Assembly: GCA_012728875.1 (NCBI GenBank) | Contig: JAAYEF010000010.1 | Span: 1-64,000, forward strand | From: Candidatus Cloacimonadota bacterium | Lineage (GTDB): Bacteria; Cloacimonadota; Cloacimonadia; Cloacimonadales; Cloacimonadaceae | Length of the DNA: 64,000 nucleotides | Reading direction: 5' to 3' | Part shown: one piece after another, positions 6,927-51,786 of the stretch | How the letters are laid out: each line of letters starts with the position of its first letter | Position numbering within the stretch: position 1 is the stretch's first letter | Notes under the pieces: model-generated | Database searches by the model: none | What the model was told of the DNA's origin: nothing | What the model saw: the letters and a program-made list of their open reading frames with translations, nothing else | Program-made: the position numbers and the translations under genes

Positions 6927-7020
6927 GGTATCATTATCTCCTAATCTGGTTGGCATGTTTATTGTTAATTAGGTTTTAGAACCAGCTGCAGAATAACCGC
7001 TTGTTCTTCATCAAGTTATA

Positions 7021-7057
7021 AAATTAGCCCCGCCACCCTGAGAAAGGTGGTGGGGCC
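7021..7057 (-). terminator. Rho-independent terminator of the 1697-residue surface protein gene
   Basis: An 11-bp stem with one G-T pair (7027-7037 with 7046-7056) on the minus strand is followed by TAATTTTAT. It lies 18 bp downstream of the stop at 7075. Confidence 0.8.
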
Positions 7058-7074
7058 TATTTGCTATTTATGGT

Positions 7075-15837: not shown

Positions 15838-15867
15838 TTGACAATTTTTGAAAACCATGTCTATTTT
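15838..15867 (+). promoter_or_regulatory. Candidate sigma70-type promoter for the T9SS-tail gene at 15988
   Basis: TTGACA at 15838-15843, 18-base spacer, TATTTT at 15862-15867. It lies about 120 bp upstream of the start codon. It matches by eye only. Confidence 0.5.
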
Positions 15868-15987
15868 GAGTTAAGATCGAAATCATTGTAAAAAATTATG
15901 CAATCGTGTGCTGTTATTGCGATTGATAGAGCACGAACCCTCGGATTTAGAGGTGAGCACACACCAAATAATAAGAAGGAGAAGATC

Positions 15988-21082: not shown

Positions 21083-22381
21083 TTAAACCAGTCTTATTTT
21101 CATTTGCCAAGGATCGGTCAAATCAGGTCTATATGGAGATGTATTATAGTGTGTAGTTCGCTGCAGGCAGATTTTCAGTACCTGGCAAAGCCTGTAGTAA
21201 ACGAACTGGCGTAGTTTAGCCCAGTCCTTTTTTCTAAAACAGATGATCTTTGGGAAGGCCTCCGCAATCTTTTCGATCACATCTTTACAGGAGTAGATGA
21301 AGTACAGCGAAATGATCATCAACATATTGAGATTCTTCAGTTTGACGTAGCTGGCCACACGCATTTTCTCCCATTGCAGGTCCTGTTTCATTTGCCGGTG
21401 CATTTCTTCAATCTTCCAACGTTTGCGGTATGCGCTGATTGCCCGCTGGATGATTTCCAAGTCCGACAGTTCCGGATCGCCAAAGTCGCAAATCAGATAG
21501 AAGTCCTTTCCCTTTTGCTTGCCTCTGGCAAATTTGCGACAAATAACCAGGCTGGCCTCTACACTGTTGGCTTTGGCGGAGGGATGATCGTCTGTCCGGA
21601 CCCCGATGCGCCGCGTGGCACAGCGAAAGGTCTCGTTGGGTTTGAAGCCCGGGAGTTCGAAAGCAAGGTCAATACTGCTTATTACCTGCTTGAAATTCAC
21701 TTCCGTTGTGTCTTCCAGGATGTTTCTTTTCCCAACGCCACGGACGATGAAAGACATGCCATTTTCAACCAGAAAGCCAATCGTCTTGCGGTCATCATAA
21801 CCCCGGTCAAAGACAAACAAGCCCCGACCATTGCTCTTGATGTTGATATCAATCAAGCGGTCATGCATAAGCTGTTTGATTGAATCAAGCTCCAAATCGG
21901 TGGAGATGAGATCACTGCTCACTGGCAACAACTGATAACCTTGGTCATCATCCAGACAGACCAAGATATTCAGAAGGTTATAACCTTTGGTTTGTATTGC
22001 TTTGCTGCCATTGTGTACCAGTTTGCAGCCTTCCATTTTCTTCGCGTAAGGTTTTTCAATATCGCTCTCGTCAACTATGATCAGGGAATCCTGTTCAAGC
22101 TTGGGACATACAATATCCATCAGGGCTTCACGTAATTGTTCATCCAGACCTTCCCGACCCAGATTCCTGTATAGGCGCTCACTGGTCTTCTTGGTGCTGG
22201 TCCCATCAATGGTATTCTGGGCGATTTTGTGAACCGATGCCGTGCCATTTCCACATATGCCAAACAGCATGTCCCGGATGAATTTGCTCACTGGTCTGCT
22301 CATGCCCCGGCTAATCCTGTTGACCAGGTTCGATAATTTTGCTTGCATAAAACTGCTGGTTTCTTTTTCTGTCTTCGTCAT
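21083..22381 (-). CDS. IS4-family DDE transposase
   Basis: A 432-residue transposase. The catalytic Asp residues are in LIIVDESDIEKPYAKKMEG and GLFVFDRGYDD. The family signature Y-x2-R-x3-E-x6-K is exact in YRKRWKIEEMHRQMK. Full length and uninterrupted, so possibly active. Its ribosome binding site (GGAG, 7 bases before ATG) lies in one arm of a 9-bp inverted repeat (see 22384-22431), a layout known from other IS elements where it prevents translation from outside transcripts. Confidence 0.9.
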   Translation of the reverse strand: MTKTEKETSSFMQAKLSNLVNRISRGMSRPVSKFIRDMLFGICGNGTASVHKIAQNTIDGTSTKKTSERLYRNLGREGLDEQLREALMDIVCPKLEQDSLIIVDESDIEKPYAKKMEGCKLVHNGSKAIQTKGYNLLNILVCLDDDQGYQLLPVSSDLISTDLELDSIKQLMHDRLIDINIKSNGRGLFVFDRGYDDRKTIGFLVENGMSFIVRGVGKRNILEDTTEVNFKQVISSIDLAFELPGFKPNETFRCATRRIGVRTDDHPSAKANSVEASLVICRKFARGKQKGKDFYLICDFGDPELSDLEIIQRAISAYRKRWKIEEMHRQMKQDLQWEKMRVASYVKLKNLNMLMIISLYFIYSCKDVIEKIAEAFPKIICFRKKDWAKLRQFVYYRLCQVLKICLQRTTHYNTSPYRPDLTDPWQMKIRLV

Positions 22382-22383
22382 AT

Positions 22384-22431
22384 CGACGCTCCTATTGGTT
22401 GAATTTCAAGACCAAGATAACGGGAGCGTCG
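22384..22431 (-). promoter_or_regulatory. Inverted repeat that would sequester the transposase ribosome binding site
   Basis: CGACGCTCC and GGAGCGTCG form a perfect 9-bp inverted repeat (arms 22384-22392 and 22423-22431) with a 30-base loop. In minus-strand transcripts starting outside the element, the arm nearest the ATG contains the GGAG ribosome site and would be paired. A transcript starting inside the loop would escape. This is inferred from known IS10/IS50-type regulation. Confidence 0.6.
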
Positions 22432-23030
22432 TTTTTGTAAAGATATTTATTGCAATTTCTTAAGATATATTTCTGTCCAAGATTTTGCAGGTTTTTGGCC
22501 TCCAGATATCCTCTTTATGAAGCTAATTTGCAAATCTTGACTCAAAGCTTCAAAAACAAATCCAAGCAAGAAATAACAGCTTTTTCCGATATTGACCTTC
22601 TATTTAACAGGTATGCTATATTTTTCAACGCCAAGAATCTTTGCCGGTGTGGATAACTTTGTTTTCCGGAGCTTGTTTTGTGGATAACTTCAAGAATTTT
22701 CTTCACAATTGTGCATAGACAACCCGATTTGCATCCGAAAACACAAATTAATGGACAGAAATATAAGCTATCTATCTGATAAACATGTTACTACAACTAC
22801 AGTTCCTCACTTTTTTGGGGGAATGCCTTTAAAAGCATGGCGCGGGATAGTAAAAGCAATAAATATCTCCCTTGATATATTTATTTCATATAACCAAATG
22901 AAACATAATGGGATTTACTGAAATTTTAACATGAAGATATCGATACTATGATTTATTATTCCATAATATGTGTTAAGTATATTATGGCATTAAGTTAAGT
23001 AGTCTACACAGATTTAAATGAAGAGGATGA
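22432..23030. other. AT-rich intergenic region with two DnaA-box-like sites
   Basis: About 600 bp of AT-rich sequence. Apart from the two TGTGGATAA sites near 22650-22690 nothing is recognised. A 70-codon open frame at 22709-22921 has no convincing ribosome site or motif. Confidence 0.4.
22648..22687 (+). promoter_or_regulatory. Pair of DnaA-box-like sequences
   Basis: TGTGGATAA (complement of TTATCCACA) occurs at 22648-22656 and 22679-22687, same orientation, 31 bp apart, each followed by CTT. A third 8-of-9 match (CGTGGATAA) is at 23174-23182. Whether they bind DnaA is unknown. Confidence 0.35.
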
Positions 23031-23186
23031 AAGTCAAAGCAGTTCATATCATTTTCAGAAGAGGTGATAGTAAGGGATAACAAGGCCCATTTTTACCACC
23101 TATCCAACTATGCTGGCTTCAGCCATCAAAAAGCAAATCTTACTGATATTCCTAATGGTATCCTTATTCCAACCGTGGATAAGTAG
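23031..23186 (+). pseudogene. Short protein-like open frame, probably a gene remnant
   Basis: Between an in-frame stop at 23028 and the stop at 23184 the frame encodes about 51 residues including VIVRDNKAHFYHLSNYAGF and DIPNGILIPTVDK. The composition looks like real protein rather than a shadow frame, but there is no ATG. It may be the 3' end of a lost gene or a small gene with a non-ATG start. The family is not recognised. Confidence 0.3.
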
Positions 23187-23215
23187 AAAAAAATAAATAA
23201 ACGGTACCCCTCAGC

Positions 23216-23413
23216 TCAAAATACACATGGTCCGGTTTTTTTGCTTGCGTCATATATGTCATGGTTAACCAAAAAAGACACTCTCACTCTCACCGAAGGA
23301 TGATCCATTTCTTTTGCTTCCAACTGTCCAGCTTTGATCCTTTTCATCACCGCTTGCCAGGATATTCCAACCAATTCCGTATATTCCCCAACACTTATCC
23401 ACTTGTCTGTCAT
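23216..23413 (-). CDS. Small helix-turn-helix (excisionase/MerR-like) protein
   Basis: A 65-residue protein. Start at ATG 23413, 8 bases after AAGGGAG. The stretch WISVGEYTELVGISWQAVMKRIKAG has the pattern of a winged-helix DNA-binding module of the Xis/MerR type, followed by a VRVRVSFLV wing-like strand. The last codons run into a dispersed intergenic repeat (23217-23256), so the C-terminus has probably been replaced. Possible roles are excisionase of a lost mobile element or a small regulator. Confidence 0.5.
   Translation of the reverse strand: MTDKWISVGEYTELVGISWQAVMKRIKAGQLEAKEMDHPSVRVRVSFLVNHDIYDASKKTGPCVF
23217..23256 (+). repeat. Dispersed intergenic repeat, copy 1
   Basis: Begins CAAAATACACATGGTCCG and continues through a T run to GCGTCATAT. 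The same start occurs at 26142 and 29743. This copy overlaps the end of the helix-turn-helix gene. Confidence 0.75.
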
Positions 23414-23647
23414 AAACTTTGCTCCCTTATTCCATTGCCCCAAAATTTGGGCGGAAGGTGTCGACGTCGCTCCGCCCCACAGCTACGGATCTCTCAAGTT
23501 TCAAAGTAGTCCGCCTCTAGACGGCTTTCAATCCTCCGCCTGGCTTCCTCGAGCCGCTTTTCTCTTGACATAATTAGACACGCCCCCAAACTAACCATTA
23601 TGGGTTTTTCATCCTTTCCATAAGAAAATATACTTAAAGGAGACATC

Positions 23648-24094
23648 ATGAAACAGGCTGTAAGTATTGCCCTAATTTCGCTTCTTTGCTTCGTCCCGTT
23701 CATGCTTTATGCGCAGAACCACTACATTAACCTCCATGGAACACGGGATTCCATAAAATGTGAATTGCTGGGTGTCGTGGATGGTCAGATTTATTATCGT
23801 ACCGATACACAAACATTGGTGGTCGTCCCTGTCGAGTCGGTAAAATCCGTAAAATATGGCAACAAGGATATCACAAAAACCATCTCTGCCGAAAACGGCA
23901 TCCCCTTAAGTCCTTACGCCCTAACTCTTTTCTCAAACGTGTCAGATTCAATTGCAACCCAAAACAGAGCCATAATGATCCAGCAAAATCAAGTTGATGA
24001 ACTGCGGGGCATCAAGTCGGGAGTTTATTTAATTGGTGGACTCTCCCTGGCTGGGATAATTGCGTCTCTTATAGGCATGTTCTCTGTAAAATAA
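23648..24094 (+). CDS. Small exported or membrane protein of unknown function
   Basis: A 148-residue protein after a strong AAAGGAG site. It has an N-terminal signal sequence (ISLLCFVPFMLYAQ), then about 85 residues with alternating beta strands (IKCELLGVVDGQIYYR, VVVPVESVKSVKYG), and a hydrophobic C-terminal segment (GVYLIGGLSLAGIIASLIGMF) that would anchor it in a membrane. The beta-rich part resembles small domains of Bacteroidetes-type hypothetical proteins that sense or bind at the envelope, but no family is certain. Confidence 0.6.
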   Translation: MKQAVSIALISLLCFVPFMLYAQNHYINLHGTRDSIKCELLGVVDGQIYYRTDTQTLVVVPVESVKSVKYGNKDITKTISAENGIPLSPYALTLFSNVSDSIATQNRAIMIQQNQVDELRGIKSGVYLIGGLSLAGIIASLIGMFSVK

Positions 24095-24232
24095 GTAACT
24101 ACTGATTGCTCTTGCTGTCTCCTGTATGGTCCTGCGACAGTATTTTAACTATTTTTGCTTCAAGTCGCTTAGGAATATCCCAATTTGCAAATTTGGGTGG
24201 CTTTTTACAATAGGGCTGGCCTCATGGAGCAG

Positions 24233-24289
24233 TCAGCTCGGGATAAAACGTTGACAGAGAATGATGTAGTTGGAGATTTGCCTAAGGAA
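24233..24289 (+). repeat. Dispersed intergenic repeat, partial copy upstream of the OLD-family gene
   Basis: Matches 26203-26260 closely, including a long identical stretch containing GATGTAGTTGGAGATTTGCC. This copy and the one at 26142 flank the OLD-family gene as direct repeats. Confidence 0.8.
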
Positions 24290-24421
24290 CAACAATAAAT
24301 GTCAGAAATCGTTTTGATTACTACACTGGTTGCTGACAAAACAATTGCATACGATTTTAAATAAAGAGACTGACATTATAATAAGTTGCCTATAAAGTGA
24401 ATAATTTCTAAGGAGAGGATC

Positions 24422-26137
24422 ATGAAAATTAAAAAGATTGTCATACACAATTATCGTTCGATCACTGACGCAACAATCGAGGCTGATCAGTTTTTAATGC
24501 TTGTGGGACCAAACAATTCAGGAAAAAGCAATGTCATCAATGCCCTTAGGACTTTTTATGAAGACAAGTTAAAGTGGTCTAATGAGGATTTCCCCAAAAT
24601 TAGCACCTTAGATAATGATTCTTGGATTGAAATCTCATTTGCATTAACAGACGATGAATGGAATAACTTAGCCGATAAATATAAGAGTAAACAGTTGACT
24701 AACACCCTTACAGTAAAACGATATTTTAAGGGTACAAAGGTACGGGCGTCTCAAAGCAATATTTATGCTATCGTCGACGGCGTTGAAGTAAATGAATTGT
24801 TTTATGGGGCTAAAAATGTCAGCACAGCAAAGGTGGGTAATGTAATTTATATCCCTGCACTTACAACACCCAATGAACAAATGAAAACCTCAGGACCATC
24901 GCCTCTTCGAGATATGTTGAACTTTATGCTAAAAAAAATAGTGAAGAAAAGTAATGCTTATACTCAAATCGAATCGGCTTTCAAGGAGCTTGACAAGGAA
25001 GCTAACAAACAAAATGGATTCCTATCCGAAATTTCTACACCAATCAACGAAGCCCTTAATGAATGGAATATTAAGCTAAATTTAACCGTGAATCCTGTTG
25101 GCACGGATGATATCTCTAAAAATTTAGTGAAACCATCCTTTGTAGACACAGTGTTAGGGGCTGATGGACTCGAATTAGAGAGATATGGACACGGCTTTCA
25201 AAGATCAGTGATATATGAATTAATCAAATTGTCTTCCACGTTCAAGGATGAAAAGGAGTCAGATAAAAAGGAATTTAACCCTGATTTTAATCTGATATTA
25301 TTTGAAGAACCCGAGTCGTTCCTTCACCCTGCACAACAGGAGATAATGGCATTTCATTTAAGAAGGTTAAGCTCTGTTGAAAATCAACAGATTTTAATTA
25401 CAACTCATTCACCGATTTTCGTGAGCAAAAACAGCGATGCAATTCCACAGATAGTGCGACTTAAAAAAGAAAACGGAGTTTCGAAGTTTTATCAAATGAA
25501 AGAGTTCGAACTAGATAAAGTATTCTCCAGCGTATTTGATTTTCAAAGTGCCCTCCAGAGCTATATAGATGACTCATCGATAGAGGAAGGACAAAAAAAT
25601 GAAGCAAAAAAACTTATAGCTTCGGCTCCCCCAGAATCTATCGCACTTCAACACGAAAAATTCAGATATCAGTTGTGGCTGGATTCTGATAAGGCATCAA
25701 TGTTTTTTGCTGATAAAGTACTACTGGTCGAAGGTGCTACTGAAAAAGCTCTATTTAATTATCTTTTAGCAAATCAATGGAATGATCTGTCTCAACATAG
25801 AATTTTTGTAGTAGATGCCTTGGGTAAATTTAATCTACACAGGTTCATGTTGTTGTTTGAAAGTTTTGGAATAGATCATGGGCTCATGTTTGATGATGAC
25901 AATTCAAAAAAGCATCATGATGTGATAAATAAATACATTTTAAGCAAAAAGAACCTTTTTACACTTTCCGATCCTGTTTGTTTTTCCGGTTGTTTAGAAA
26001 AACATTTTGAGTTAGATTTGTATAAAAGAGGTGATCAAAAACCATTGGAAATAATACGAGCTTTAGAAGAAAGAATGATTTCTCCAGAACAATTGGATCA
26101 ATTAAAAGAACTGTTTTGCAAAGCACTAGGAATCTAA
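24422..26137 (+). CDS. OLD-family ATPase/TOPRIM nuclease (probable phage defence)
   Basis: A 571-residue protein. The N-terminal ABC-type ATPase has Walker A GPNNSGKS (29-36) and a signature/Walker B region, LILFEEPESFLHPAQQEI, followed by the switch His in ITTHSPIF. The C-terminal TOPRIM domain is shown by LLVEGATEKALF and GLMFDDDNSK. This order is typical of OLD proteins; many are anti-phage nucleases. No UvrD-like helicase follows, so it is not a complete Gabija pair and fits a class 1 OLD. The gene is visibly AT-richer than the host genes around it and is flanked by direct copies of an intergenic repeat, both signs of acquisition. Good AAGGAGAGG ribosome site. Confidence 0.85.
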   Translation: MKIKKIVIHNYRSITDATIEADQFLMLVGPNNSGKSNVINALRTFYEDKLKWSNEDFPKISTLDNDSWIEISFALTDDEWNNLADKYKSKQLTNTLTVKRYFKGTKVRASQSNIYAIVDGVEVNELFYGAKNVSTAKVGNVIYIPALTTPNEQMKTSGPSPLRDMLNFMLKKIVKKSNAYTQIESAFKELDKEANKQNGFLSEISTPINEALNEWNIKLNLTVNPVGTDDISKNLVKPSFVDTVLGADGLELERYGHGFQRSVIYELIKLSSTFKDEKESDKKEFNPDFNLILFEEPESFLHPAQQEIMAFHLRRLSSVENQQILITTHSPIFVSKNSDAIPQIVRLKKENGVSKFYQMKEFELDKVFSSVFDFQSALQSYIDDSSIEEGQKNEAKKLIASAPPESIALQHEKFRYQLWLDSDKASMFFADKVLLVEGATEKALFNYLLANQWNDLSQHRIFVVDALGKFNLHRFMLLFESFGIDHGLMFDDDNSKKHHDVINKYILSKKNLFTLSDPVCFSGCLEKHFELDLYKRGDQKPLEIIRALEERMISPEQLDQLKELFCKALGI

Positions 26138-26141
26138 TCAT

Positions 26142-26260
26142 CAAAATACACATGGTCCGTTTTTTATTCTTGGGTCATATCGGGGTGTGGTACCATAGAG
26201 AAATCAGCTTGGAATATAACATTGACAGAAAATGATGTAGTTGGAGATTTGCCTAAGGAA
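26142..26260 (+). repeat. Dispersed intergenic repeat, longest copy, downstream of the OLD-family gene
   Basis: Starts 5 bp after the OLD gene stop. The first part (CAAAATACACATGGTCCG to CATATCGGGG) matches 29743; the second part (ATCAGCTTGG to CTAAGGAA) matches 24233. This copy therefore links the partial copies into one element of about 120 bp. Confidence 0.8.
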
Positions 26261-26381
26261 TAAAAATATGTTTGGCATCGTTTTATTGACAGAGGCAAGC
26301 CGCTCCCAACGGAAGTGGGATTTGTATATTGGCAAACCTTAGAATCGATGGATGGCAAAATCGCCAGAAGATGGAGGAATC

Positions 26382-29300
26382 ATGAAGTCATGGATATTGG
26401 TTTTCAGTTTTTGCATTTTGCTAAGTTCAGGCTTTGCTCAGTTTGCAGGTGGCTCGGGCACCAGATCCAATCCCTGGCAGGTGGCAACAGCGAAACAGCT
26501 GGACAACGTGCGGAATTATTTAGGCGAAGCACACAAAAATAAGTATTTCATCCAAACTGCGGACATAGATCTGGGTGTGACTCCGTGGAACCAGGGAGAA
26601 GGTTGGATGCCGATTGGATATTATTATGATTATGAAAGCAGCACTCGCACAGGATTTTACGGTAACTACAATGGTAACGGGAAGGTCATTTCCAACCTGT
26701 ATATAAATAGACCGGACGGTGATTATCAGGGTTTATTTGGATTTTCCTCAGGTGAAATCAAGAATCTGGGACTCGTTGATGTCAACGTGAGAGGAAAATC
26801 GTTTGTAGGCAACTTGGCTGGAAGCAATGGCGGTACCATCAGCAATTGCTACAGTTCCGGCAGTGTGACTGGAGACCAAGATATCGGAGGCTTGGCAGGA
26901 TATAATGAAGGCAGCATCAACAATTCTTACAGCGTGTGCAGTGTTAAAGGGAGTGGTCGTATCGGTGGATTGGCGGGATATAATCAGGGTACCTTTAGTA
27001 ACTGTTATTGTAAAGGCAATGTGAACGGGGACGCTTTTGTCGGCGGCTTGGTGGGGTTAAGTTATGGCACGTTTAGCAACTGTTACAGTGCTTGTTACAA
27101 TGGCGGCAATGGGTGCGCAGGCGTCTTGATCGGGAACGGTAATGGCATTTTCAGTAACTGCTATTGGGATATGCAGGTTTCAGGCTGCAACTTTAAATTA
27201 TATGGAGAAGGCAGATCCACAAGCGAGATGGTTTTTCCTCATGCGTCAAATACCTATGTTAATTGGGACTGGAGTGTCTGGAAACCTGATGTGGACCACA
27301 GTGTCAATGATGGGTATCCTTATTTCAGGCCAGCGGATGATTTTGCCACACAGTTGCCTGAGGCTGCAGCATATCCCATACCTGCTGACCACAGTAAGAT
27401 GGTCCCTGTAGATTACAAATTACAATGGCGTGTGGTTTTCACCCCGACAAATATTGATCCGCTCTGTGGGTTCAAGCTCTGGCTGGGTACGGATAATCCA
27501 CCTACTAATATCATCAATGGGCTGGATATTGGTCATGAAAACGAGTTTGACCCGAGCTCTTTTCTTACATTGAACAGCACCTACTACTGGCGCGTTGTTC
27601 CCTACAATGAGCTGGGAGAAACGGTTAATGTCCCAGTTTGGTCTTTTCGCACCTATTCAACAACCGGGTTTGATGGGGGCTCGGGAACGGAAAAAGACCC
27701 TTGGCGAATTGCCAATGCCGGGCACCTTTACAATGTAAGACACTACATAGGTAAGGCTCACAAAAACAAATATTTCATTCAAACTGCTGACATCGATCTG
27801 GGTGTTGCTCCGTGGAACCAAGGGGAAGGCTGGGTGCCAATAGGATATGGGGATATCGATAATAATTGGAATTGGGAGTGGATAGGAGTTTATGATGAGG
27901 ATAAATACGATTTGGATTTTTATGGAAATTACAATGGAAACGGTAAAATCATTAGGAATCTGTTTATTAACCGGCCAGACAGTAATCTTCAAGGATTGTT
28001 TGGCCGGTTTTTAGGTCAAATCCATAAATTGGGACTTGAAAATATGAACGTGAACGGGTGTTCCTTAATCGGTGGCTTGGCGGGAAGTAATGGAGGCAGC
28101 ATCAGCAACTGTTACAGCAAGGGCGTTGTTAATGGGAATTCTTGTGCAGGTAGTTTGGTGGGATATAATGATTGGGGTTCCATCAACAATTGCTACAGCA
28201 CTGGCAGTGTGAGTGGAGAATCTTCTAGCGATGGCATGGTGGGCTGTAATTTTGATAGTCATCTCATCAACTGTTATAGTGATGTGCAGACATCAGGCCA
28301 GAGCCTCAACTTATATTCAGAAAACAGAACCAAGAAAGAGATGGTTTTTCCTTATGCATCAAACACTTATGTTAATTGGGACTGGCGAGTCTGGAAACCT
28401 GATGTGGACCACAGTGTCAATAACGGATATCCATATTTTAGACCAACGAATGAGATAGCCACACAGTTACCCGAAGTTGCCATTAATCCGATACCTGCAG
28501 ACCAAAGTACATCAATTCCACTTGATTACATGTTGCAATGGCAGGTAATATTTAGCACGACAAACACGGATGTGCCCCGAGGTTTTAAGCTTTGGTTGGG
28601 CACGAATAATCCTCCTTCAAATATCATCGACGGGTTGGACCTCGGCTATGTTAATGGTTATGATCCGAGTCACTTTCTTTCATTGAACAGCACCTACCAT
28701 TGGCGAGTAGTTCCTTACAATGAGCTGGGGGAAGCGGTTAATATACCTGTTTGGTCTTTTCACACCTATGCAACAACTGGATTCGGTGGCGGTTCCGGAA
28801 CAGAACGAGACCCTTGGCGAGTTAGCAATGCCGGGCACCTTTATAATTTAAGATACTTTCTGGGGGAGACCCATGCAGATAAATTTTTTATCCAAACTGC
28901 GGACATCGATTTAGGTGTAACACCTTGGAGCCAAGGAGAAGGCTGGATCCCGATTGGATGCATTGATGACAATGAAAATGATACAGAGTTTTCTGGACAT
29001 TACAACGGGAATGGAAAAGTTATTTCTAACCTGTACATATATAGGCCGAGCAGTGATTATCAGGGGTTATTTGGATGTTCATCCGGACGAATATTGAATA
29101 TTGGACTTGAGGATGTAAGTGTGATTGGTAAAGACTTTACTGGTTGCTTACTAGGGAGAAATAGCGGCATCATCCGCAACTGTTACAGCATGGGTAGCTT
29201 GAACGGGGACAGTGAAACGGGTGGTCTAGTGGGATACAATGACGGCACTATCAGCAGCTGTTACAGCACAGTCAACGTAAACGGGAACATAAATACTGGT

Positions 29301-29678
29301 TGTCTGATTGGGAGTAACTATGGTACCATAACTGATTGTTACAGCACTGGTAACGTGACCGGAGGGATAGCCGGTGGTCTGGTAGGGCCGAATAGAGGCG
29401 CCATCAATAATTGCTATAGCACAGGCAAAGTGAACGGTAAGCTTGATGGTGGCTTGGTAGGTTATAATTCTGACACTATCAATAACTCCTACTGGAAGAA
29501 GCATACATCAGATCTAACCGGCGACTACGACGATGGAGGCAGAACAACAAAGGAGATGGTGTATCCTTATTCCGCGAACACATATAAGGGATGGAATTTC
29601 TGGGATGTTTGGGCAGCAGATTCGACAGGAAAGATAAATGGAGGTTATCCATATTTAAGGTTCCAGAAGAGCCAATAA
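26382..29678 (+). CDS. Secreted GLUG-repeat surface protein with threefold internal duplication
   Basis: A 1098-residue exported protein. The start is the ATG before MKSWILVFSFCILLSSGFAQ, behind GGAGG; the frame is open 30 bases further up. Three large repeats of about 370-400 residues each contain a conserved block (NKYFIQTADIDLGVTPW, GNYNGNGKVISNLYI), a run of GLUG motifs (GGLAGYNEGSINNSYS and similar), and, in the first two, a Fn3-like linker with GFKLWLGTDNPP. GLUG motifs occur in secreted adhesins and IgA-peptidase-like proteins; no protease motif is seen. The linker is shared with the products at 7075 and 18109. There is no T9SS tail or shared terminal Fn3 module; the end is GGYPYLRFQKSQ. 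Confidence 0.8.
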   Translation: MKSWILVFSFCILLSSGFAQFAGGSGTRSNPWQVATAKQLDNVRNYLGEAHKNKYFIQTADIDLGVTPWNQGEGWMPIGYYYDYESSTRTGFYGNYNGNGKVISNLYINRPDGDYQGLFGFSSGEIKNLGLVDVNVRGKSFVGNLAGSNGGTISNCYSSGSVTGDQDIGGLAGYNEGSINNSYSVCSVKGSGRIGGLAGYNQGTFSNCYCKGNVNGDAFVGGLVGLSYGTFSNCYSACYNGGNGCAGVLIGNGNGIFSNCYWDMQVSGCNFKLYGEGRSTSEMVFPHASNTYVNWDWSVWKPDVDHSVNDGYPYFRPADDFATQLPEAAAYPIPADHSKMVPVDYKLQWRVVFTPTNIDPLCGFKLWLGTDNPPTNIINGLDIGHENEFDPSSFLTLNSTYYWRVVPYNELGETVNVPVWSFRTYSTTGFDGGSGTEKDPWRIANAGHLYNVRHYIGKAHKNKYFIQTADIDLGVAPWNQGEGWVPIGYGDIDNNWNWEWIGVYDEDKYDLDFYGNYNGNGKIIRNLFINRPDSNLQGLFGRFLGQIHKLGLENMNVNGCSLIGGLAGSNGGSISNCYSKGVVNGNSCAGSLVGYNDWGSINNCYSTGSVSGESSSDGMVGCNFDSHLINCYSDVQTSGQSLNLYSENRTKKEMVFPYASNTYVNWDWRVWKPDVDHSVNNGYPYFRPTNEIATQLPEVAINPIPADQSTSIPLDYMLQWQVIFSTTNTDVPRGFKLWLGTNNPPSNIIDGLDLGYVNGYDPSHFLSLNSTYHWRVVPYNELGEAVNIPVWSFHTYATTGFGGGSGTERDPWRVSNAGHLYNLRYFLGETHADKFFIQTADIDLGVTPWSQGEGWIPIGCIDDNENDTEFSGHYNGNGKVISNLYIYRPSSDYQGLFGCSSGRILNIGLEDVSVIGKDFTGCLLGRNSGIIRNCYSMGSLNGDSETGGLVGYNDGTISSCYSTVNVNGNINTGCLIGSNYGTITDCYSTGNVTGGIAGGLVGPNRGAINNCYSTGKVNGKLDGGLVGYNSDTINNSYWKKHTSDLTGDYDDGGRTTKEMVYPYSANTYKGWNFWDVWAADSTGKINGGYPYLRFQKSQ

Positions 29679-29742
29679 CCGTATCAAGCACCTATACTGT
29701 CTCAACTGGACCCAGCATAGAGTTTTCCCGCGCTGGAGACAC

Positions 29743-29811
29743 CAAAATACACATGGTTCGTTTTTTTTGCGTCATATCGGGGAGTGGCAGCATAAAGGCA
29801 TCAGCCAAGAA
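29743..29811 (+). repeat. Dispersed intergenic repeat, copy downstream of the GLUG gene
   Basis: CAAAATACACATGGTTCG followed by a T run and GTCATATCGGGG, 64 bp after the stop codon. It aligns with 26142-26199 with a few changes. Confidence 0.75.
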
Positions 29812-30391
29812 TAATGGTTAGTAAAAGGAATAAATACCCCTCCCCCTAGTTTTTCTCTATGATGAGACCAATTGTTGCTTTTCTTCCCATTTTCCAATAG
29901 GAGGCTTGAATTTGTATCAGACTCCGTAACGTTATTCCATTTGGATTTGGACGGATAGTAAATGTAGTTATATACATCCCCTACCCCATTTTTGGATGGT
30001 ATATCTTCTCTATGAAAATAGAATTCAAACTAATCTGTCAAATGTATGGGGATGAACCCAGAGTCAATGAAGGCAGGAGCCTACACCTTAAGTGTGCCCA
30101 CACTGGCTTGGCTCTTCTACTTGACAAAAGAACAGTGAGTTATAATTTGATTCAACCTGTTCCTGCGAAGATGTAATACATGGCAACAAGAAAAACAACA
30201 AAGTTCGCCAAGGCAATGAATGGAATACGGTTTTACCCTGTTGATTGCGTGTCAGTTGCTGTAGATTATTTTGTTTTTCGATTGGGTTATATTTAACCGG
30301 AACCGCATGATGGAAGGAAAAAATATCGGCATTTGTGTTACGTGCTTTTTGCAAAGTTAATGTTTTCAGTTGGTTGTTGAGATAGCAGTAT
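29812..30391. other. Intergenic region upstream of the McrB-like gene
   Basis: About 580 bp, AT-rich, no recognised gene. It should hold the promoter of the downstream pair; no clear -35/-10 pair was found. It could also hide the decayed 5' end of the McrB-like gene, which lacks an ATG. Confidence 0.4.
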
Positions 30392-31855
30392 TTGTATTAT
30401 AAACGAGTTAACCTCCTGATCTTGGCGTATGGCGTAAGTGCTACAAATCCGCCGAATAGAAACTGGCATTTTCCTGAAGAAAGACCTCCCACCACGAAAG
30501 AATATTTCAGACGTAATGGATTGGGTGAGCCAGAGAGATACCCGGAGTCCTTTATTTATAAGGCTTATGAAATATTGGATACCACAAACAGAGGATTGGA
30601 TGAAGCCACGATCGTTGGAGATCTGGATGCTCTGCTTGACGAATATAAGGGTATCTTTGAAAATCCAATTCCTGAAGAGCCTGAAACCCCCATCCAGCCT
30701 CCTCCAACCATTGTGGAATCAAATCCCGCAAAAACTCAGGAACATTCGCTTGTATCAAAATTTTTGGACGCCGCAAAGTCCGCTCATTATCGGGTTTCAG
30801 AGGATCTTGCCACCCGTTACATTGCTTCCCTGCTCACCAAACCGTTTGTGATCCTCACCGGGCTTTCCGGCTCGGGCAAGACCAAGCTGGCGCAGGTGTT
30901 TGCAGAATGGATTTGCGAGAGTGAAGAGCAATACAGAATTGTGCCCGTGGGAGCGGATTGGACAAACAGGGAACCCCTGCTGGGCTTTCCCAACGCCTTG
31001 GACCGGGGCAGATATGTGAGCCCGGACAGCCGTGTGTTGGAACTGATGATTGACGCAGAAAGAAACCCGGACAAGCCTTATTTCTTGATCCTGGACGAGA
31101 TGAACATGAGCCATGTGGAGCGCTATTTTGCAGACTTTTTGAGCGCGATGGAATCCGGAGAGAAAATCTTTTTGCACCCCGAAAGCCATGATCTGGAAGG
31201 GATTCCATCCAGTGTGACCCTGCCTGCGAACCTCTTTATGGTTGGCACGGTGAATATCGACGAAACCACCTATATGTTCAGTCCAAAGGTTTTGGACCGC
31301 GCCAATGTGATCGAATTTCGTGTGAGCGACACCGAAATGGATGTATTTCTGCGGGGCGACACTCACTCCGCCATCGAAATGAAGCGAGGTTCGGGCTCTG
31401 AACTTGGAAATCTTTTCATAAGCTTGAGAAACGGAGAAAAACAGAGCCATGATTTTGCGCGGGAAAAGCTGATGGAGTTTTTTAGGGAATTGCGACCCAT
31501 CGGAGCCGAATTCGGCTATCGCACCGCTTCGGAGATCAGCCGCTTTTTCAGTTTTATGAAAAAGCTGAGCCCGGATGCGGAAAACGACGCCATTTTGGAC
31601 GGCGCCATTTTTCAAAAGCTTTTGCCCAAGGTGCACGGTTCGCGCAGCAAGCTGGATCCCGTTTTGAAAAAGCTGATTGGCCTGTGCCTGTCACCCAGCG
31701 AAGCCCAAAAAGAGCTTGTGGATGTTTTGATCAAGGGAAGCAAGGTTCCCAACGAGCCCGATCTGCTAGTGAGATATCCGCTTTCCCTGGAAAAACTTCT
31801 TCGCATGTATCGAAACATGACCGACAATGGCTTCACCAGCTTTGCGGAAGCTTGA
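30392..31855 (+). CDS. McrB-like AAA+ GTPase/ATPase of a type IV restriction-like system
   Basis: A 487-residue protein. An N-terminal part of about 110 residues (NWHFPEERPPTTKEYF) precedes the McrB-type AAA+ domain: Walker A GLSGSGKT (157-164), Walker B FLILDEMNMSHVERYF, and the McrB nucleotide motif in MVGTVNIDETTYMF. Known family role: McrB forms the motor that brings the McrC nuclease to modified or foreign DNA. The next gene, 21 bp on, encodes the McrC-like partner. There is no ATG in the first 200 codons; TTG 30392 is the earliest possible start after an in-frame TAG, without a good ribosome site. The 5' end may be truncated. Confidence 0.8.
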   Translation: MYYKRVNLLILAYGVSATNPPNRNWHFPEERPPTTKEYFRRNGLGEPERYPESFIYKAYEILDTTNRGLDEATIVGDLDALLDEYKGIFENPIPEEPETPIQPPPTIVESNPAKTQEHSLVSKFLDAAKSAHYRVSEDLATRYIASLLTKPFVILTGLSGSGKTKLAQVFAEWICESEEQYRIVPVGADWTNREPLLGFPNALDRGRYVSPDSRVLELMIDAERNPDKPYFLILDEMNMSHVERYFADFLSAMESGEKIFLHPESHDLEGIPSSVTLPANLFMVGTVNIDETTYMFSPKVLDRANVIEFRVSDTEMDVFLRGDTHSAIEMKRGSGSELGNLFISLRNGEKQSHDFAREKLMEFFRELRPIGAEFGYRTASEISRFFSFMKKLSPDAENDAILDGAIFQKLLPKVHGSRSKLDPVLKKLIGLCLSPSEAQKELVDVLIKGSKVPNEPDLLVRYPLSLEKLLRMYRNMTDNGFTSFAEA

Positions 31856-31876
31856 TTTTTCCTCAGATGAAATTCC

Positions 31877-34147
31877 ATGGAATACGAATTAACGCTTTTT
31901 GACGGCTCAAAAGCAACGATTTCACTTAAAGCCGAAAAAGAAAAGAGCCTGGAAATAATCAACCCGGAAGAAGCGTGGAGGAAGTGCGAAGCCCAAATCC
32001 AGGTGTATGAGGGATGCAACTATGAATACGAAATTGAAGGTTTTCACCTGTCGGAAGAGTTCGGTGTTGTAAAAAACTCAGCATTCCACAGTTCCTCTGG
32101 CAGAATTATTCCCGGAAACCTGGTGGGCACGCTCAGCATCGACATTCTCTCCGATTCAGAAAATGAAAAAGCCGGCGTTTTGAAGCTGGAAGTACGTTCC
32201 AGGAAAATAGAATACCGGGAAGACTATCAGGAAATGCTGAGATTCATTGCAGACCGTTGCAACGAACTCATTTTGAAATCCAACAGCCCGGTCGAGCAGT
32301 TGGTTGGGCCGGTGTTCATCGATGTTTCCCGGGGGCTGTATCAAAGATTCGCCTTTCTGCGCTCCATCCTGGATTCGCAGGAGTTCAAAGATGCGGTGAA
32401 CCGGGTGCTGTCTGCCCCGGTGAGCACCTGGAGCGACGTGGAATCCGCGCGCGACATCCGCAACGTGAGACGCTTTGACCGGGCGATGGTCCGCCAAATT
32501 GCCTCAGGAGGGAAAAGAGAAGCGCTTCCCTCCAGCCATCCCCTGGCCCAAAAAATGAATTCCGTTCCCAGCATGATCACCGGCAGGCAAAAAGTCACCA
32601 CGGTTGACACACCGGAAAACAGGTTTGTAAAACACGCCTTGAACAGTTTTTTGAATTTGTGTTCCGTGGTGAGGGAACGAGCCGGGGAGGACCACAGACT
32701 GTTCGACGAATCATCCGTGCTCATAAACACGCTGGATCAATGGTTGAGCAACTCCCTTTTCCGGGAACTTGGCATGCCGGAATCCATTCCGCTGAACAGT
32801 CCGGTTCTGCAAAGGAAAGAGGGTTATCGGGAAATTCTGAAGGTTTGGCTGATGCACGACCTGGCTTCCCGGGTTTGCTGGGAAGGTGGAGAAAACGTTT
32901 ATGGCGGCGGCAAAAAAAATATCGCCGTTCTCTATGAATATTGGGTGTTTTTCAAGCTTTTGGATATCGTTCAGGAAGTTTTCAGCGTGGAACCCAAGGA
33001 CATTTCTTCGCTCATCTCCCTGGATGACAGTGGCTTGAACCTGAACCTGATACAGGGCAGGCATGTTGCCATCAAGGGTGTTTACCAGGCAAAAAACAGG
33101 ATCATGAACATCGAGCTCAACTATAACCGGACTTTCAGCATGGTTGATAAATATCCCGATGCGGGCAGCTGGACCAAAGGCTTGAGGCCGGACTATACGC
33201 TGAGCATCTGGCCTTTCGGTTTGGATGGGGAAAAAGGCAAACAACAAGCCGAAGAGGAAGAGAATATCGTCCACATCCACTTCGATGCGAAATACAGGGT
33301 GAAAGAGATCAAAGATCTGCTTGGCGAAGAACCCGAAGAGGGAAAACCTTTGCCGGCGGATACCAAAGATGCGGATTTGATGAAAATGCACGCCTATCGG
33401 GATGCGATTCGCAGATCCGGGGGTTCCTACGTGATTTTCCCAGGGGTTAAGACCTCCGAGGGCAACACCCGGATTTACAGAGGTTTTCGCGAAATTATTC
33501 CCGGTTTGGGAGCGTTTCCGCTCAATCCCTCCGAAGCGGATGAAAACTCGCAGGACCTTGCCAAGTTTCTATCCCAGGTGGCTCAACACATGATGAATCG
33601 CGTCACTCAGCGTGAAAAAATGGCACAGAAGGCATATCAAACCTACAGTGAAGAAGAGCGAGACCCGCTTTTTGCCGAACTGCCCAGGGCGGAAGACGGT
33701 TCGCACGACGTGATCCCGGATGAAACCTGGGTTTTGGTTTGTTACTATAAAAACTCCCAGCAGTTGGCCTGGATTGAAGAAAAACTGCTGTACAACGCCA
33801 GGGCGCAGGGCGAAAATGCCTTGGAGGAATTGAGCCCAGAAGCGATGAGCGCCAAGTATATTTTGCTGTATGGAGGGAGGGGTTCAGCCCAAAAAATCTA
33901 TCCCTTGGAAAAGGGAGGACCTGTGCTTTTCAGCGCGGAAAAACTGAAGGAAAAGGGGTATCCCGGCACTCCAAGTGTTTCCCACTATTTGGTTTATCAC
34001 ATCAGGGATAAGGACCCCGTTCCGGAATTCAAGAGCCTGGATTTCAAAATTGAACAGCTCGGACTGCGCACAGGTTTCAGAGGCGACTATAAACCCTATC
34101 CCGTGCGTTTGGATGTGCTTTTGCGCAACACAGAGCCCTTGGGCTGA
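31877..34147 (+). CDS. McrC-like protein, DUF2357 plus PD-(D/E)xK nuclease
   Basis: A 756-residue protein starting at ATG 31877. The N-terminal half, with VDTPENRFVKHALNSFLNLC near 240, fits the DUF2357 domain of McrC-type proteins. The C-terminal half contains the nuclease core: a possible Glu in a helix near 335 (AVLYEYWVFFKLLD), IHFDAKYRVKEI (Asp-x-Lys) and the following helix DLMKMHAYRDAIR. A further domain of about 150 residues ends the protein (DETWVLVCYYKN onward). With the McrB-like motor encoded directly upstream, it should act as the DNA-cleaving subunit of a type IV restriction-like system. Convergent with hisC, 14 bp apart. Confidence 0.8.
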   Translation: MEYELTLFDGSKATISLKAEKEKSLEIINPEEAWRKCEAQIQVYEGCNYEYEIEGFHLSEEFGVVKNSAFHSSSGRIIPGNLVGTLSIDILSDSENEKAGVLKLEVRSRKIEYREDYQEMLRFIADRCNELILKSNSPVEQLVGPVFIDVSRGLYQRFAFLRSILDSQEFKDAVNRVLSAPVSTWSDVESARDIRNVRRFDRAMVRQIASGGKREALPSSHPLAQKMNSVPSMITGRQKVTTVDTPENRFVKHALNSFLNLCSVVRERAGEDHRLFDESSVLINTLDQWLSNSLFRELGMPESIPLNSPVLQRKEGYREILKVWLMHDLASRVCWEGGENVYGGGKKNIAVLYEYWVFFKLLDIVQEVFSVEPKDISSLISLDDSGLNLNLIQGRHVAIKGVYQAKNRIMNIELNYNRTFSMVDKYPDAGSWTKGLRPDYTLSIWPFGLDGEKGKQQAEEEENIVHIHFDAKYRVKEIKDLLGEEPEEGKPLPADTKDADLMKMHAYRDAIRRSGGSYVIFPGVKTSEGNTRIYRGFREIIPGLGAFPLNPSEADENSQDLAKFLSQVAQHMMNRVTQREKMAQKAYQTYSEEERDPLFAELPRAEDGSHDVIPDETWVLVCYYKNSQQLAWIEEKLLYNARAQGENALEELSPEAMSAKYILLYGGRGSAQKIYPLEKGGPVLFSAEKLKEKGYPGTPSVSHYLVYHIRDKDPVPEFKSLDFKIEQLGLRTGFRGDYKPYPVRLDVLLRNTEPLG

Positions 34148-35282: not shown

Positions 35283-35420
35283 AAGAATTGAGCTCGACGG
35301 GCAAAAAAAGCTTGACACGGATATCATAGCATAAATAATGCGATTATTAAATTTGGCTTGCATAGGCAGTGAATAATGAGGGCTTTCGGGCACCTCCGTG
35401 ATCTTGAGAAACACTGATTG

Positions 35421-35452
35421 GGAAATTACCCCAACATTTGGGACTTAACAAC
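35421..35452 (+). repeat. Dispersed fragment related to 99-131
   Basis: CCAACATTTGGGACTTAACAA at 35431 differs by one base from CCAACATTTGGGACTCAACAA at 110, and the surrounding bases are also similar. In the corresponding frame this copy carries a stop. It is probably a decayed piece of the same element whose remains flank the IS1634-type insertion. Confidence 0.6.
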
Positions 35453-35527
35453 CTGTAGATATCAGATTTATATATAACTGACTAACAAAAAATGTATTTA
35501 ACTATTAACCAAAGATGTGAGGTCGTA

Positions 35528-36379
35528 ATGAATATAATTGAAACAATGTTCCCATATATAAGCTTGATTAGATGGATTATTAAGTACCTTTCGCGGAAAA
35601 GGATATGCATCCTGGGAGAGAGTGCGGTAGGGAAAACAATGATGTTTAACTATTTGTCTACGGGAATCATTCACCAGAACTATCATCCTACTACCCATTC
35701 TATCACGGTTAAGGGAAGATCAATCCGTTTAAAAGATTTAAATCTTTTTATAGCTGATTCGATGGATGTTACCGGTACAGGTCACGGATGGGACGAGTGG
35801 GAAAAAAGTTACAGGAATTCTGATTATGTTATTTACATGTTTAGAGCAGATTTGGTTTTTCCATCCAGTTTAGAAGATGTCGTCGGAAACTTTAGAACAA
35901 ACCCCAAAGTAGACGGTAAAAAATTCTCTCAGTTCATTGAATTGTTTAACGGGTATATTGACTCAATACAAACGCAATCTAAGAGGTTAACAAAAGACTC
36001 TTCAGCGGACATTATTCAAGAGCTATCAGCTTGCTATGAAGAATACAGAAATGAGCATATTGGAAGACTTAATGTTGATATACAGCAAATTAAAGAATGG
36101 TATAATGCACAAGCTAAGCCCATTGTTTTTGTTGGCACCCATGGAGATTTCATTCCCAAGTTTGACTATCTTAACTCGAAAAAAAAAGGTTATCTCTACG
36201 ATACCCTTAGAGACGAGCTTTATGAGAGAGTACCAAAGTTATCTATGGAAGATAGAACGTATATGATAGTTGGCTCTTTCACAAATGAAGTAGAGGTTGG
36301 ATATTATGTATATGAGCTTTTTAAAATGCTCAAGGATAGAGCAATGGCTGCAAAAAAAGAAACAGGGCGCAGAACATGA
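35528..36379 (+). CDS. Arf/Ras-like small GTPase, first gene of an unrecognised cassette
   Basis: A 283-residue protein. The start is the ATG before MNIIETMFPYISL, 6 bases after GAGG; the frame is open for 12 more codons upstream. The P-loop GESAVGKT (30-37), a G3-like segment, LFIADSMDVTG, and a G4-like THGD in VFVGTHGDFIPK mark a small GTPase domain. HGWDEWEKSYRNSDYVIYMF resembles the switch II and following strand of Arf-type proteins. An insert of about 60 residues, probably helical (IQTQSKRLTKDSSADIIQELS), lies between G3 and G4. A hydrophobic N-terminal helix may attach it to the membrane. It is AT-rich like the next two genes and unlike hisC. I do not recognise the three-gene set. Confidence 0.7.
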   Translation: MNIIETMFPYISLIRWIIKYLSRKRICILGESAVGKTMMFNYLSTGIIHQNYHPTTHSITVKGRSIRLKDLNLFIADSMDVTGTGHGWDEWEKSYRNSDYVIYMFRADLVFPSSLEDVVGNFRTNPKVDGKKFSQFIELFNGYIDSIQTQSKRLTKDSSADIIQELSACYEEYRNEHIGRLNVDIQQIKEWYNAQAKPIVFVGTHGDFIPKFDYLNSKKKGYLYDTLRDELYERVPKLSMEDRTYMIVGSFTNEVEVGYYVYELFKMLKDRAMAAKKETGRRT

Positions 36380-36418
36380 ATAAAAGAGTTTTCTCTCGAA
36401 CACTTTATGGAGTTGAAT

Positions 36419-36931
36419 ATGACTACTAAAACTTACCTATGGTCTCAACATTTAAATAATGTTTCCCCGGACATAATAGCAAATGTTACTAATGTATATG
36501 TGTCCGTGACAGAACCTCAAGTTCGGAATAAAATTATCTCAATGATCTCCGAAGTTACAAGTTCAAAAAAGGTTCTGATAGCAAAAGGCCTATTTTCTAC
36601 GACGTATCTGCTTGGGAAAGTGATGGTATTTGATATAGAATCAAACGACATAGATTCTGGAGGAAGAAAGTCAATCATAACAGGATACTATGAAGGTTTT
36701 AATCTATCTGCAAATGATCCTTGGCAAGATTTATTGAGTAAGATAAAAAACTTTGCTCAAAAAAATGAACGATCTATATTAGACAGTGCATTGGCAGACC
36801 TGACTAAGTCTTTTAGTTCAGTTTTAAGAAAAAAGTCAATGAAGACCAGAAAATCAGTAATATTAGCTGCCATAGTTATGCTGCTATCCCTCTTATTAGT
36901 AATAATTTTATTCAAGCGTTACAAGGGATAA
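36419..36931 (+). CDS. Unrecognised tail-anchored membrane protein, second gene of the cassette
   Basis: A 170-residue protein starting at ATG 36419 after TGGAG (an earlier start at 36407 is possible). Residues 1-135 are soluble and partly beta-rich (KVLIAKGLFSTTYLLGKVMVFDIES) followed by a helical stretch. One transmembrane helix near the C-terminus (SVILAAIVMLLSLLLVIILF) is flanked by Lys/Arg on both sides, so most of the protein should face the cytoplasm. It lies 39 bp after the GTPase and 16 bp before the third gene. It could be the membrane partner or effector of the GTPase; this is inference from position only. Confidence 0.55.
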   Translation: MTTKTYLWSQHLNNVSPDIIANVTNVYVSVTEPQVRNKIISMISEVTSSKKVLIAKGLFSTTYLLGKVMVFDIESNDIDSGGRKSIITGYYEGFNLSANDPWQDLLSKIKNFAQKNERSILDSALADLTKSFSSVLRKKSMKTRKSVILAAIVMLLSLLLVIILFKRYKG

Positions 36932-36947
36932 TTACAAAAGAAATTAG

Positions 36948-37718
36948 ATGGAGAAAAAATTGAACAATCCGAGCCTTATACCGAGTAACCCAGATAGAAG
37001 AAAAGTCATTATAGTGTTATCGAGTGATAATGCTAATATTTTTAAATATAAAGATGACGAAGGATTACGGGCACATCCAAATATATGTATAGTAGAATAT
37101 GATAAAATCGTTTCAGATCATGGTCTACTTGATAGAATCAAACCTATGATATTGCCCAATGTTATCCTAATACAGAGCCCTTACGACCTTGATGTTTATG
37201 AGATAGGAGAAGACGCTGTGTATAAATTCTCAGTCTCAAAACATGTCATTGCTTCACAAATATTCCGTTTACTTGGATGCAAAAGCCTTGAAGTAATGCA
37301 ATTAGATATAGAAGGAGAAAAGGAAACACGCCAATTTCGATTTGCTGGCGAACATCCGGAGTTAACAGCTGAGTTCAAAAAACTCGACATCAACGAAAGA
37401 AGCCTGATTTCGGAGGTTAAGCTTAAAGAAATTTATCAAGGAAGTAAACCAAGGATTAAGCAAGCCTATGATTACCTAGCAAAACACTATCTGACCAATG
37501 ACAGTAACTTAATGGGCTTAATTGAGAAAAGAAGCGATGAGAGTAATAAAATGAACGAGTATAGCTTGCAGGTTACTCTTACACAAGAAACAAAACACAC
37601 TGTTGATTTTCTTGGAACGATTGGAATACCTCATTTTCTTGCAAAAATCGAAGGTAGTGTGAATACACTCAAACAGAATAAAACAGAATTCAAAGTCACA
37701 TACAAAGCTACGTTTTAG
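36948..37718 (+). CDS. Unrecognised cytoplasmic protein, third gene of the cassette
   Basis: A 256-residue protein without signal or membrane segments. The N-terminal half has alternating strands and helices (RKVIIVLSSDNANIF, NICIVEYDKIVS, MILPNVILIQSPYDLDVYEIG), as in a Rossmann-like fold. The C-terminal 65 residues are beta-rich (EYSLQVTLTQETKHTVDFLG, FLAKIEGSVNTLKQ, EFKVTYKATF). No catalytic motif is recognised. Start at ATG 36948 with only a weak ribosome site. It is the last gene of the AT-rich cassette; no clear terminator follows. Confidence 0.5.
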   Translation: MEKKLNNPSLIPSNPDRRKVIIVLSSDNANIFKYKDDEGLRAHPNICIVEYDKIVSDHGLLDRIKPMILPNVILIQSPYDLDVYEIGEDAVYKFSVSKHVIASQIFRLLGCKSLEVMQLDIEGEKETRQFRFAGEHPELTAEFKKLDINERSLISEVKLKEIYQGSKPRIKQAYDYLAKHYLTNDSNLMGLIEKRSDESNKMNEYSLQVTLTQETKHTVDFLGTIGIPHFLAKIEGSVNTLKQNKTEFKVTYKATF

Positions 37719-48852: not shown

Positions 48853-49195
48853 AAATCGTGGAGTCAAAACAACCTTTATTGCAACCCCTGTTGCGTTCTT
48901 TAGCCTGAAACCCACTATACAATAGATCAAATAAGCTTATTGTCGTGGACGTCAGTAATACCATGGTTCGATGGTAATCTTTTGCTCGGGGAAATGAGTT
49001 TATATTCTTGTAGAACCATGCTTTAGATCACTCCAGCACACCCAATAAACCTCAAAACAAACCTTTAGGATGTGTTTGGGTTGACTTTGGCTTGTCTTTA
49101 CGTTGGGATAAGCATTCCCCTTCATATAGTGGGTAGCATTTTTGGGAGTTCTCGTAGATAGGCAAGGAAAAAAACGTAGATTAGCACTGAATTTT

Positions 49196-49302
49196 AATAG
49201 ACTGGGGATGCACAGGATAATGTGGATAAAAAGGGGATTTTAGTTCACGCCGATTACCCCGATTATTTTGATATGTAACAAAGTGACAGAGAGACAAGGT
49301 GT
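49196..49302 (-). repeat. Intergenic repeat, inverted relative to 51325-51435
   Basis: The complement of this stretch aligns with 51325-51435: shared TTTGTTACATAT, GTAATCGGCG, AAAATCCCCTTTTTAT, ATCCTGTG and ATCCCCAGTCTATT, in the same order. The two copies flank the nucleotide-sugar dehydrogenase gene. Confidence 0.8.
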
Positions 49303-49388
49303 CGCTTTATTACTTTTCAAAAAATCTGCGTGAACCCTGAAACCTTCCCATCCGTATAAGTTTTGCCCTACATCTCCGTAATTCAAGG

Positions 49389-50979: not shown

Positions 50980-51786
50980 CGATTTGTCTCCTTGGTTATT
51001 ATCATTCTTTGGCGTTACAAATTTTTAATAGGACTTCCTTGTCAAGGCTTATTTGCCATCCGGATGGGGGAATAGGTCGGGTTGAAGGGGTTTTAGCGTT
51101 TTGACGTTTTAGCGTTTTAACGTGGGCTGTGTTTTTGGGTTTTCATACTGAAGATGCGAGGTTTGCGGATGGTGACAATTCTTTTTTTATGACCACGGAT
51201 TGGATTTCTCCCTCCGCTCGAAATGACGGTGTGGTGCGGGTTTGGGAGTGTGTGCAACAGACTTTCGTGCAACACAAAGGTTTAACGTTTTAGCGATTTA
51301 GCGTATCTCGCACAAGCGAAACGTTGTTTCTTTGTTACTTTTGTTACATATTAAAAAAATCTGCGTAATCGGCGCTATCTGCGTGAACCAAAATCCCCTT
51401 TTTATCGTCCCCATCCTGTGTATCCCCAGTCTATTCAATAATCTGCGCACTCTGCGTTTCTTTCTGCGCCAATCCGCGGGAACCCTAAAACGCTACAATG
51501 CCACGACGCTAAAACCCCAACGGTGGCCAGATATTTGCCTCAAAGAAAAAGATTGACGCGAATTTTGGGGAAAATAACTTGGCTTCAGGGCTTGATGCCA
51601 AATCCGGCCATGCGCGGGGTATGCCTTGCCACTTGGCGGGGAGGCGGGTCTCATGCGCCTTCTGTTTTTGTTTTTATTCCGGTTCGAAGCTCCGTTTTGC
51701 CGAGGCGAATCCGCAGCGGTGAGCTTGTGGTGAGTTCAAAAAAATCAAAGGAAGTGTCCGGCGGTGAAAATCCGGATGAGGAAGCG
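50980..51786. other. Intergenic region with simple and dispersed repeats
   Basis: About 800 bp. It holds the upstream region of the dehydrogenase gene, short tandem copies of a TTTTAGCG-like unit around 51092-51123 and again near 51282-51304, a CGCTCGAAATGACG element near 51218, and the repeat at 51325. From 51523 a frame is open into panB, but codon use and composition do not suggest a gene there. Confidence 0.5.
51325..51435 (+). repeat. Intergenic repeat, inverted relative to 49196-49302
   Basis: See the copy at 49196. This copy has an extra TATCTGCGTGAACC-type insertion and continues into related ATCTGCG-rich sequence to about 51480. Confidence 0.8.

Follow-up and report, generated by a model that had tools for sequence, protein, structure and literature searches.

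Elements of the MITE and PATE type are non-autonomous and take the form of short, discrete non-coding repeats with a sharp edge. CALINs are clusters of attC sites without integron-integrases (IntegronFinder 2.0, PMC9024848). Among the papers searched, none bore on integrons of Cloacimonadota or on cassettes of this kind in defence islands. The locus described here lies within a 64-kb window, the whole stretch of 64,000 nucleotides that was analysed from a Cloacimonadota genome, and consists of an intergenic repeat that stands beside successive accessory genes. It is interpreted tentatively as a fossil repeat-bounded accessory block, the mechanism of which is unproven.

Sequence and distribution of the repeat

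The window was searched with the complete copy of the repeat, copy B, using blastn. Related pieces, all plus-strand, were found at positions 23216-23255, 24223-24297, 26141-26268 and 29742-29813. The first was 90% identical to copy B over 40 nt (E 2e-8), the second 87% identical over 75 nt (E 2e-18) and the last 80% identical over 75 nt (E 3e-13), so the preliminary description was correct in placing related sequence at these sites and always in the plus orientation. The 17-mer YCAAAATACACATGGTY occurs three times exactly and once with a single mismatch, compared with an expectation of 0.07 when up to two mismatches are allowed.

The preliminary description listed four sites, which are best read as three copies. 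Of the full copy, the piece at 23217 covers the left part only and that at 24233 the right part only, and the two most probably represent a single copy (copy A) that an insert has cut in two. When the halves were joined across the sequence TCATGG they aligned to copy B over its full length, with one 9-bp gap and 84% identity over 141 aligned bases. The left half of copy A (23216-23264, plus strand), delimited by blastn and the join test, has a sharp left edge and a 3' end at TCATGG, and the right half (24222-24321, plus strand) matches copy B strongly from 24223, the match weakening past ATCGTTTTGATT. Copy B (26141-26290, plus strand) is the sole complete and uninterrupted copy and begins 4 nt after the stop codon of an OLD-family gene. 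Copy C (29742-29813, plus strand) has lost the right half, and 4 nt are deleted within the left and middle parts that remain. The homology of copies A and B extends to about 24321 and 26290, giving a repeat unit of approximately 150 bp and taking the full copy beyond the end at 26260 that had been assigned to it. Pairwise identities are 84% for A and B, 82% for B and C and 81% for A and C. The three copies share a sharp left boundary, (T/C)CAAAATACACATGGT, and their upstream flanks are unrelated. A very decayed stretch resembling copy C at 22794-22872 (plus strand) is a marginal candidate for a further copy; it gave a local alignment score of 23 against a shuffle maximum of 20.5 (n = 1000), yet scores of up to 21 occur for window tiles unrelated to the repeat. 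The conserved left end of the repeat is also matched, with one mismatch, on the minus strand at 15853-15869. This site lies near a TTGACA sequence, about 30 bp upstream of the gene at 15898, and the match is likely to be a coincidence or a common AT-rich promoter-like motif.

The insert splitting copy A (23265-24221, about 960 bp) contains a minus-strand transposase stub and a plus-strand ORF of 148 aa. The stub is a helix-turn-helix (HTH) sequence of 65 aa (23219-23413, minus strand), residues 4-55 of which match the N-terminus of the 700-900-aa DDE transposases of the family, with matches in seven of 50 family genomes (this one included) and a best E of 7e-8 outside its own genome. It is regarded as putatively of the Mu type by comparison of the layout of the matching large DDE transposases with that of MuA-like proteins. 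Its C-terminal tail, approximately the last 12 codons, is encoded by copy A itself; the HTH gene after whose end the repeat was said to follow directly is thus an incomplete stub on the minus strand that overlaps the repeat. The 148-aa ORF (23648-24094, plus strand) has an N-terminal signal-like segment, gave no Pfam or PADLOC match and is present in two of 125 phylum genomes, this one included. The sequence TCATGG is present at both ends of the insert, at 23259-23264 and 24222-24227. This candidate 6-bp target duplication, read from the sequence, is suggestive only, since the chance that two random 16-bp windows have a 6-mer in common is about 3%.

The genome that was searched comprises 2.17 Mb in 33 contigs and is about 90% complete. 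No further copy was detected in it, either by blastn or with a sequence model built from all copies, and the rest of the contig that carries the window contained none. The repeat was not found in the 124 other genomes of the phylum, in plasmids or in phages, nor in GTDB or IMG/VR, where exact pattern matches were required. As copies were found nowhere else, the repeat is local and private and not, as first described, dispersed. Occurrence mainly beside core genes, which had been named as the result that would speak against a connection with gene gain and loss, was not seen, all copies lying in one accessory block. Several apparent matches were rejected. Three viral contigs have the 17-mer by chance, as the match does not extend; the best of the weak sequence-model matches in relatives, in genome G020, lacks extended similarity to the copies and was attributed to chance, and the remaining ones had E values of at least 0.07; and a 13-nt match downstream of the OLD homolog of G036 (L021) falls at the beginning of an unrelated coding gene and was likewise put down to chance.

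The conservation of the segment could also reflect selection on a regulatory or coding element, such as a UTR, a small RNA or a small protein. Copies A and B have in common a nearly invariant core of about 40 bp and an open frame ending ...TLTENDVVGDLPKE, both of which favour selection. However, the differences between A and B are even over the codon positions (5, 5, 6) and affect 2 synonymous versus 11 non-synonymous codons, indicating that the frame is not under protein selection. The peptide has no homolog in the 124 other genomes or in phages, copy C is frameshifted and truncated, there is no stable fold, and no Rfam match was obtained in the window at gathering scores, all of which make selection quite unlikely. 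A permissive Rfam scan of 22400-30400 returned only microRNA-family matches below the cut-off, inside or beside coding sequence, which were dismissed.

Gene content and composition of the block

Along the plus strand the order is A-OLD-B-GLUG-C, so that copies in the same orientation bound both genes, as A-OLD-B and as B-GLUG-C. The first gene (24422-26137, plus strand) encodes an OLD-family nuclease of 571 aa with AAA_15 and OLD-like TOPRIM domains, assigned as Old/GajA-like by PADLOC. It has a GC content of 35% and a GC3 of 32%, compared with a GC3 of 65-71% for the core genes from 34 kb on when the low-GC genes at 35.5-37.7 kb are left aside, and it is present in five of 125 phylum genomes. 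It is clearly a foreign gene of sporadic occurrence. Within the family its nearest relative, 71% identical and found in genome G040, adjoins an ORF that looks HsdM-type and has no repeat beside it, showing that the repeat does not belong to the OLD gene itself. The second gene (26352-29678, plus strand) encodes a GLUG-motif protein of 1108 aa, contains internal repeats of about 1.1 kb and has another in-frame ATG at 26382. Beyond copy C lies an McrBC-like pair (30392-34147) with homologs in genomes G023 and G040. McrB is present in three of 50 family genomes, and in G040 the McrBC homologs and the OLD gene are on different contigs; from this patchy occurrence OLD and McrBC look to have been gained independently. 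The block as a whole is low in GC, with GC3 values of 32% for OLD, 45% for GLUG and 56-60% for McrBC. No synteny upstream of SerRS was conserved in 11 relatives of the genus.

Other repeats and acquired genes were observed on the same contig. A second, unrelated family of intergenic repeats of about 175 bp, with mixed orientation and about 75% identity, occurs in the window at 49133-49307 and 51281-51496 and at L147:5768-5944. A 120-bp repeat, 72% identical between its copies, occurs at 10-130, just past a DDE transposase gene (262-2088, minus strand) on its 3' side, and at 35333-35452, where a solitary copy is flanked by an aminotransferase gene and low-GC genes; it is possibly a solo insertion-sequence end. 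The low-GC genes are three in number (35492-37718, 33-36% GC), lie between the aminotransferase gene and genes of higher GC and include a first gene with weak nSTAND3/Roc matches. They likely represent another acquired block.

The composition of the block bears on whether the repeat was imported as an ordinary REP- or RUP-like intergenic repeat of an unsampled donor, arriving with a low-GC block of a few kb so that its adjacency to the genes would be incidental. Such an origin would account for copies that occupy spacer positions only and are confined to one low-GC accessory stretch, being absent elsewhere in the genome, and the other families on the contig show that small intergenic repeats are not exceptional here. 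It is opposed by the differing GC3 of OLD, GLUG and McrBC, which argues against one donor block, and by the failure to find the repeat in any of the genomes, plasmids, phages and viral contigs sampled, although GTDB and IMG/VR were scanned for exact matches only. Import from an unsampled donor is a somewhat doubtful reading but nearly as likely as the fossil block, and neither is proven.

Comparison with mobile elements and integron cassettes

A discrete unit of about 150 bp with a sharp left edge common to its copies is also what a small transposable element of the MITE or PATE type would leave after three local hops. Transposase debris is close by, in the form of a DDE_Tnp_1 transposase at 21083-22381 and the Mu-type stub. 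However, the ends of the repeat are not inverted repeats, the scores of the left end against the reverse-complemented right end being reached by 39-75% of random stretches, and the left edges have no common target sequence. Reading of the flanks by eye revealed no target-site duplications around A, B or C. The hairpin was no better than that of shuffled sequence, and no copy occurs elsewhere in the 2.17 Mb, which is unusual for a mobile element. An origin by transposition is therefore considered unlikely.

The preliminary description suggested an attC-like structure for the repeat, and the copies were compared with those of an integron-like array, L101, obtained through a search of GTDB for OLD genes. 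This array (L101:1416-13391, NZ_BMGM01000002.1) is from Psychroflexus planctonicus and contains ten to eleven attC-type sites of about 150-170 bp with non-canonical, GTTRNC-like cores. A recombinase of 411 aa resembling integron integrases is encoded on the same strand as the array and scores 198 bits to TIGR02249, below the cut-off of 265. An OLD-family gene lies within the array at 5932-7734. At L090:5387-8088 (Rhodothermaceae bin80, MPNB01000078.1), two direct repeats of 288 bp and 97% identity enclose an OLD-family gene, which looks like a fresh repeat-flanked insertion.

The occurrence of an OLD gene within the Psychroflexus array, together with the presence in the window of one repeat 3' of each plus-strand gene in the same orientation, would be consistent with a small and decayed cluster of cassettes (CALIN) in which the repeats are attC sites of the integron type. 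The structure of the copies points in the opposite direction. Folding as DNA gave no stable hairpin, with z values of +0.6 (A), +1.2 (B) and +0.4 (C) compared with -1.5, -2.4 and -2.7 for the L101 control sites, so that the copies fold no better than shuffled sequence. The consensus fold was -0.5 kcal/mol for the window copies against -24 kcal/mol for the L101 sites. The ends of the repeat, read directly as TCAAAATACAC on the left and ATCGTTTTGATT / ATCGTTTTATTG on the right, contain no attC core sites of the RYYYAAC/GTTRRRY type. The complementarity of cassette start to cassette end is weak for OLD (A to B, score 8, reached by 3% of random stretches) and absent for GLUG (B to C, score 4, reached by 98%), while in L101 11-12 of 13 positions are complementary in eight of nine consecutive pairs scored, the pair spanning OLD having 5 of 13. 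No integron integrase, which a CALIN does not require, was found in the genome (about 90% complete), no protein scoring over the TIGR02249 cut-off; its three Phage_integrase proteins comprise two that are XerC/XerD-like and one of phage type. The attC-like proposal thus failed on folding, on core sites and on end complementarity, and a cassette cluster of this kind is very improbable. Equally improbable is an undescribed recombination route, distinct from integrons, that used the repeat as its attachment site and added single accessory genes with one spacer of about 150 bp each, the block being its sole sampled and decayed example.

Discussion

The layout of repeat, gene, repeat, gene and repeat and the foreign, sporadic OLD gene fit some form of insertion or recombination at a repeat, in line with the earlier proposal apart from its attC-like structure, which failed the tests. 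For the fossil repeat-bounded block, considered the most parsimonious account, the following sequence of events may be envisaged. A non-coding spacer of about 150 bp would once have been present at the site, and foreign single genes, OLD and either after or before it the GLUG gene, would have been added beside it by recombination in which a spacer copy was used or made anew, with the present order as the outcome. The copies would then have drifted to 81-84% identity, copy A would have been split by the insert with the Mu-type stub, and C would have lost its right half. The copies would thereby have arisen together with gene addition, and the recombination would probably have been homologous or illegitimate and not carried out by a dedicated recombinase. 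There is no recombinase close to the block and no sign of present-day activity. Among the genomes sampled, one per species, no strain was found that has an empty site or that combines a single copy of the repeat with absence of OLD. Three copies do not suffice to show that each gene regularly comes with one repeat, and OLD and GLUG differ in composition and may have been inserted at unrelated times beside copies that already existed.

If the block grew by recombination at a spacer copy, it would document on a small scale how defence genes of sporadic occurrence become established in the islands of Cloacimonadota; if it did not, it would be ordinary genome debris. The OLD-family defence gene in the Psychroflexus integron-like array is a more useful lead than the repeat of the window.

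The closest described systems each resemble the locus in part. As in integron cassettes and CALINs, accessory genes stand singly on one strand with a related repeat after each, and OLD genes can sit in such arrays, as in L101; however, there are three copies only, the attC fold, core sites and end complementarity are absent, and no IntI was found in the genome. Elements of the MITE and PATE type are similarly short, discrete, non-coding and sharp-edged, and the repeat likewise lies near transposase debris, but it has no terminal inverted repeats and no common target, and its copies are confined to a single stretch of 6.6 kb. Direct repeats left by integration through a common sequence, of which L090 is an example, also place an OLD-family gene between repeats of the same orientation, whereas the window copies, at 81-84% identity, are old and unrelated in sequence to those of L090.
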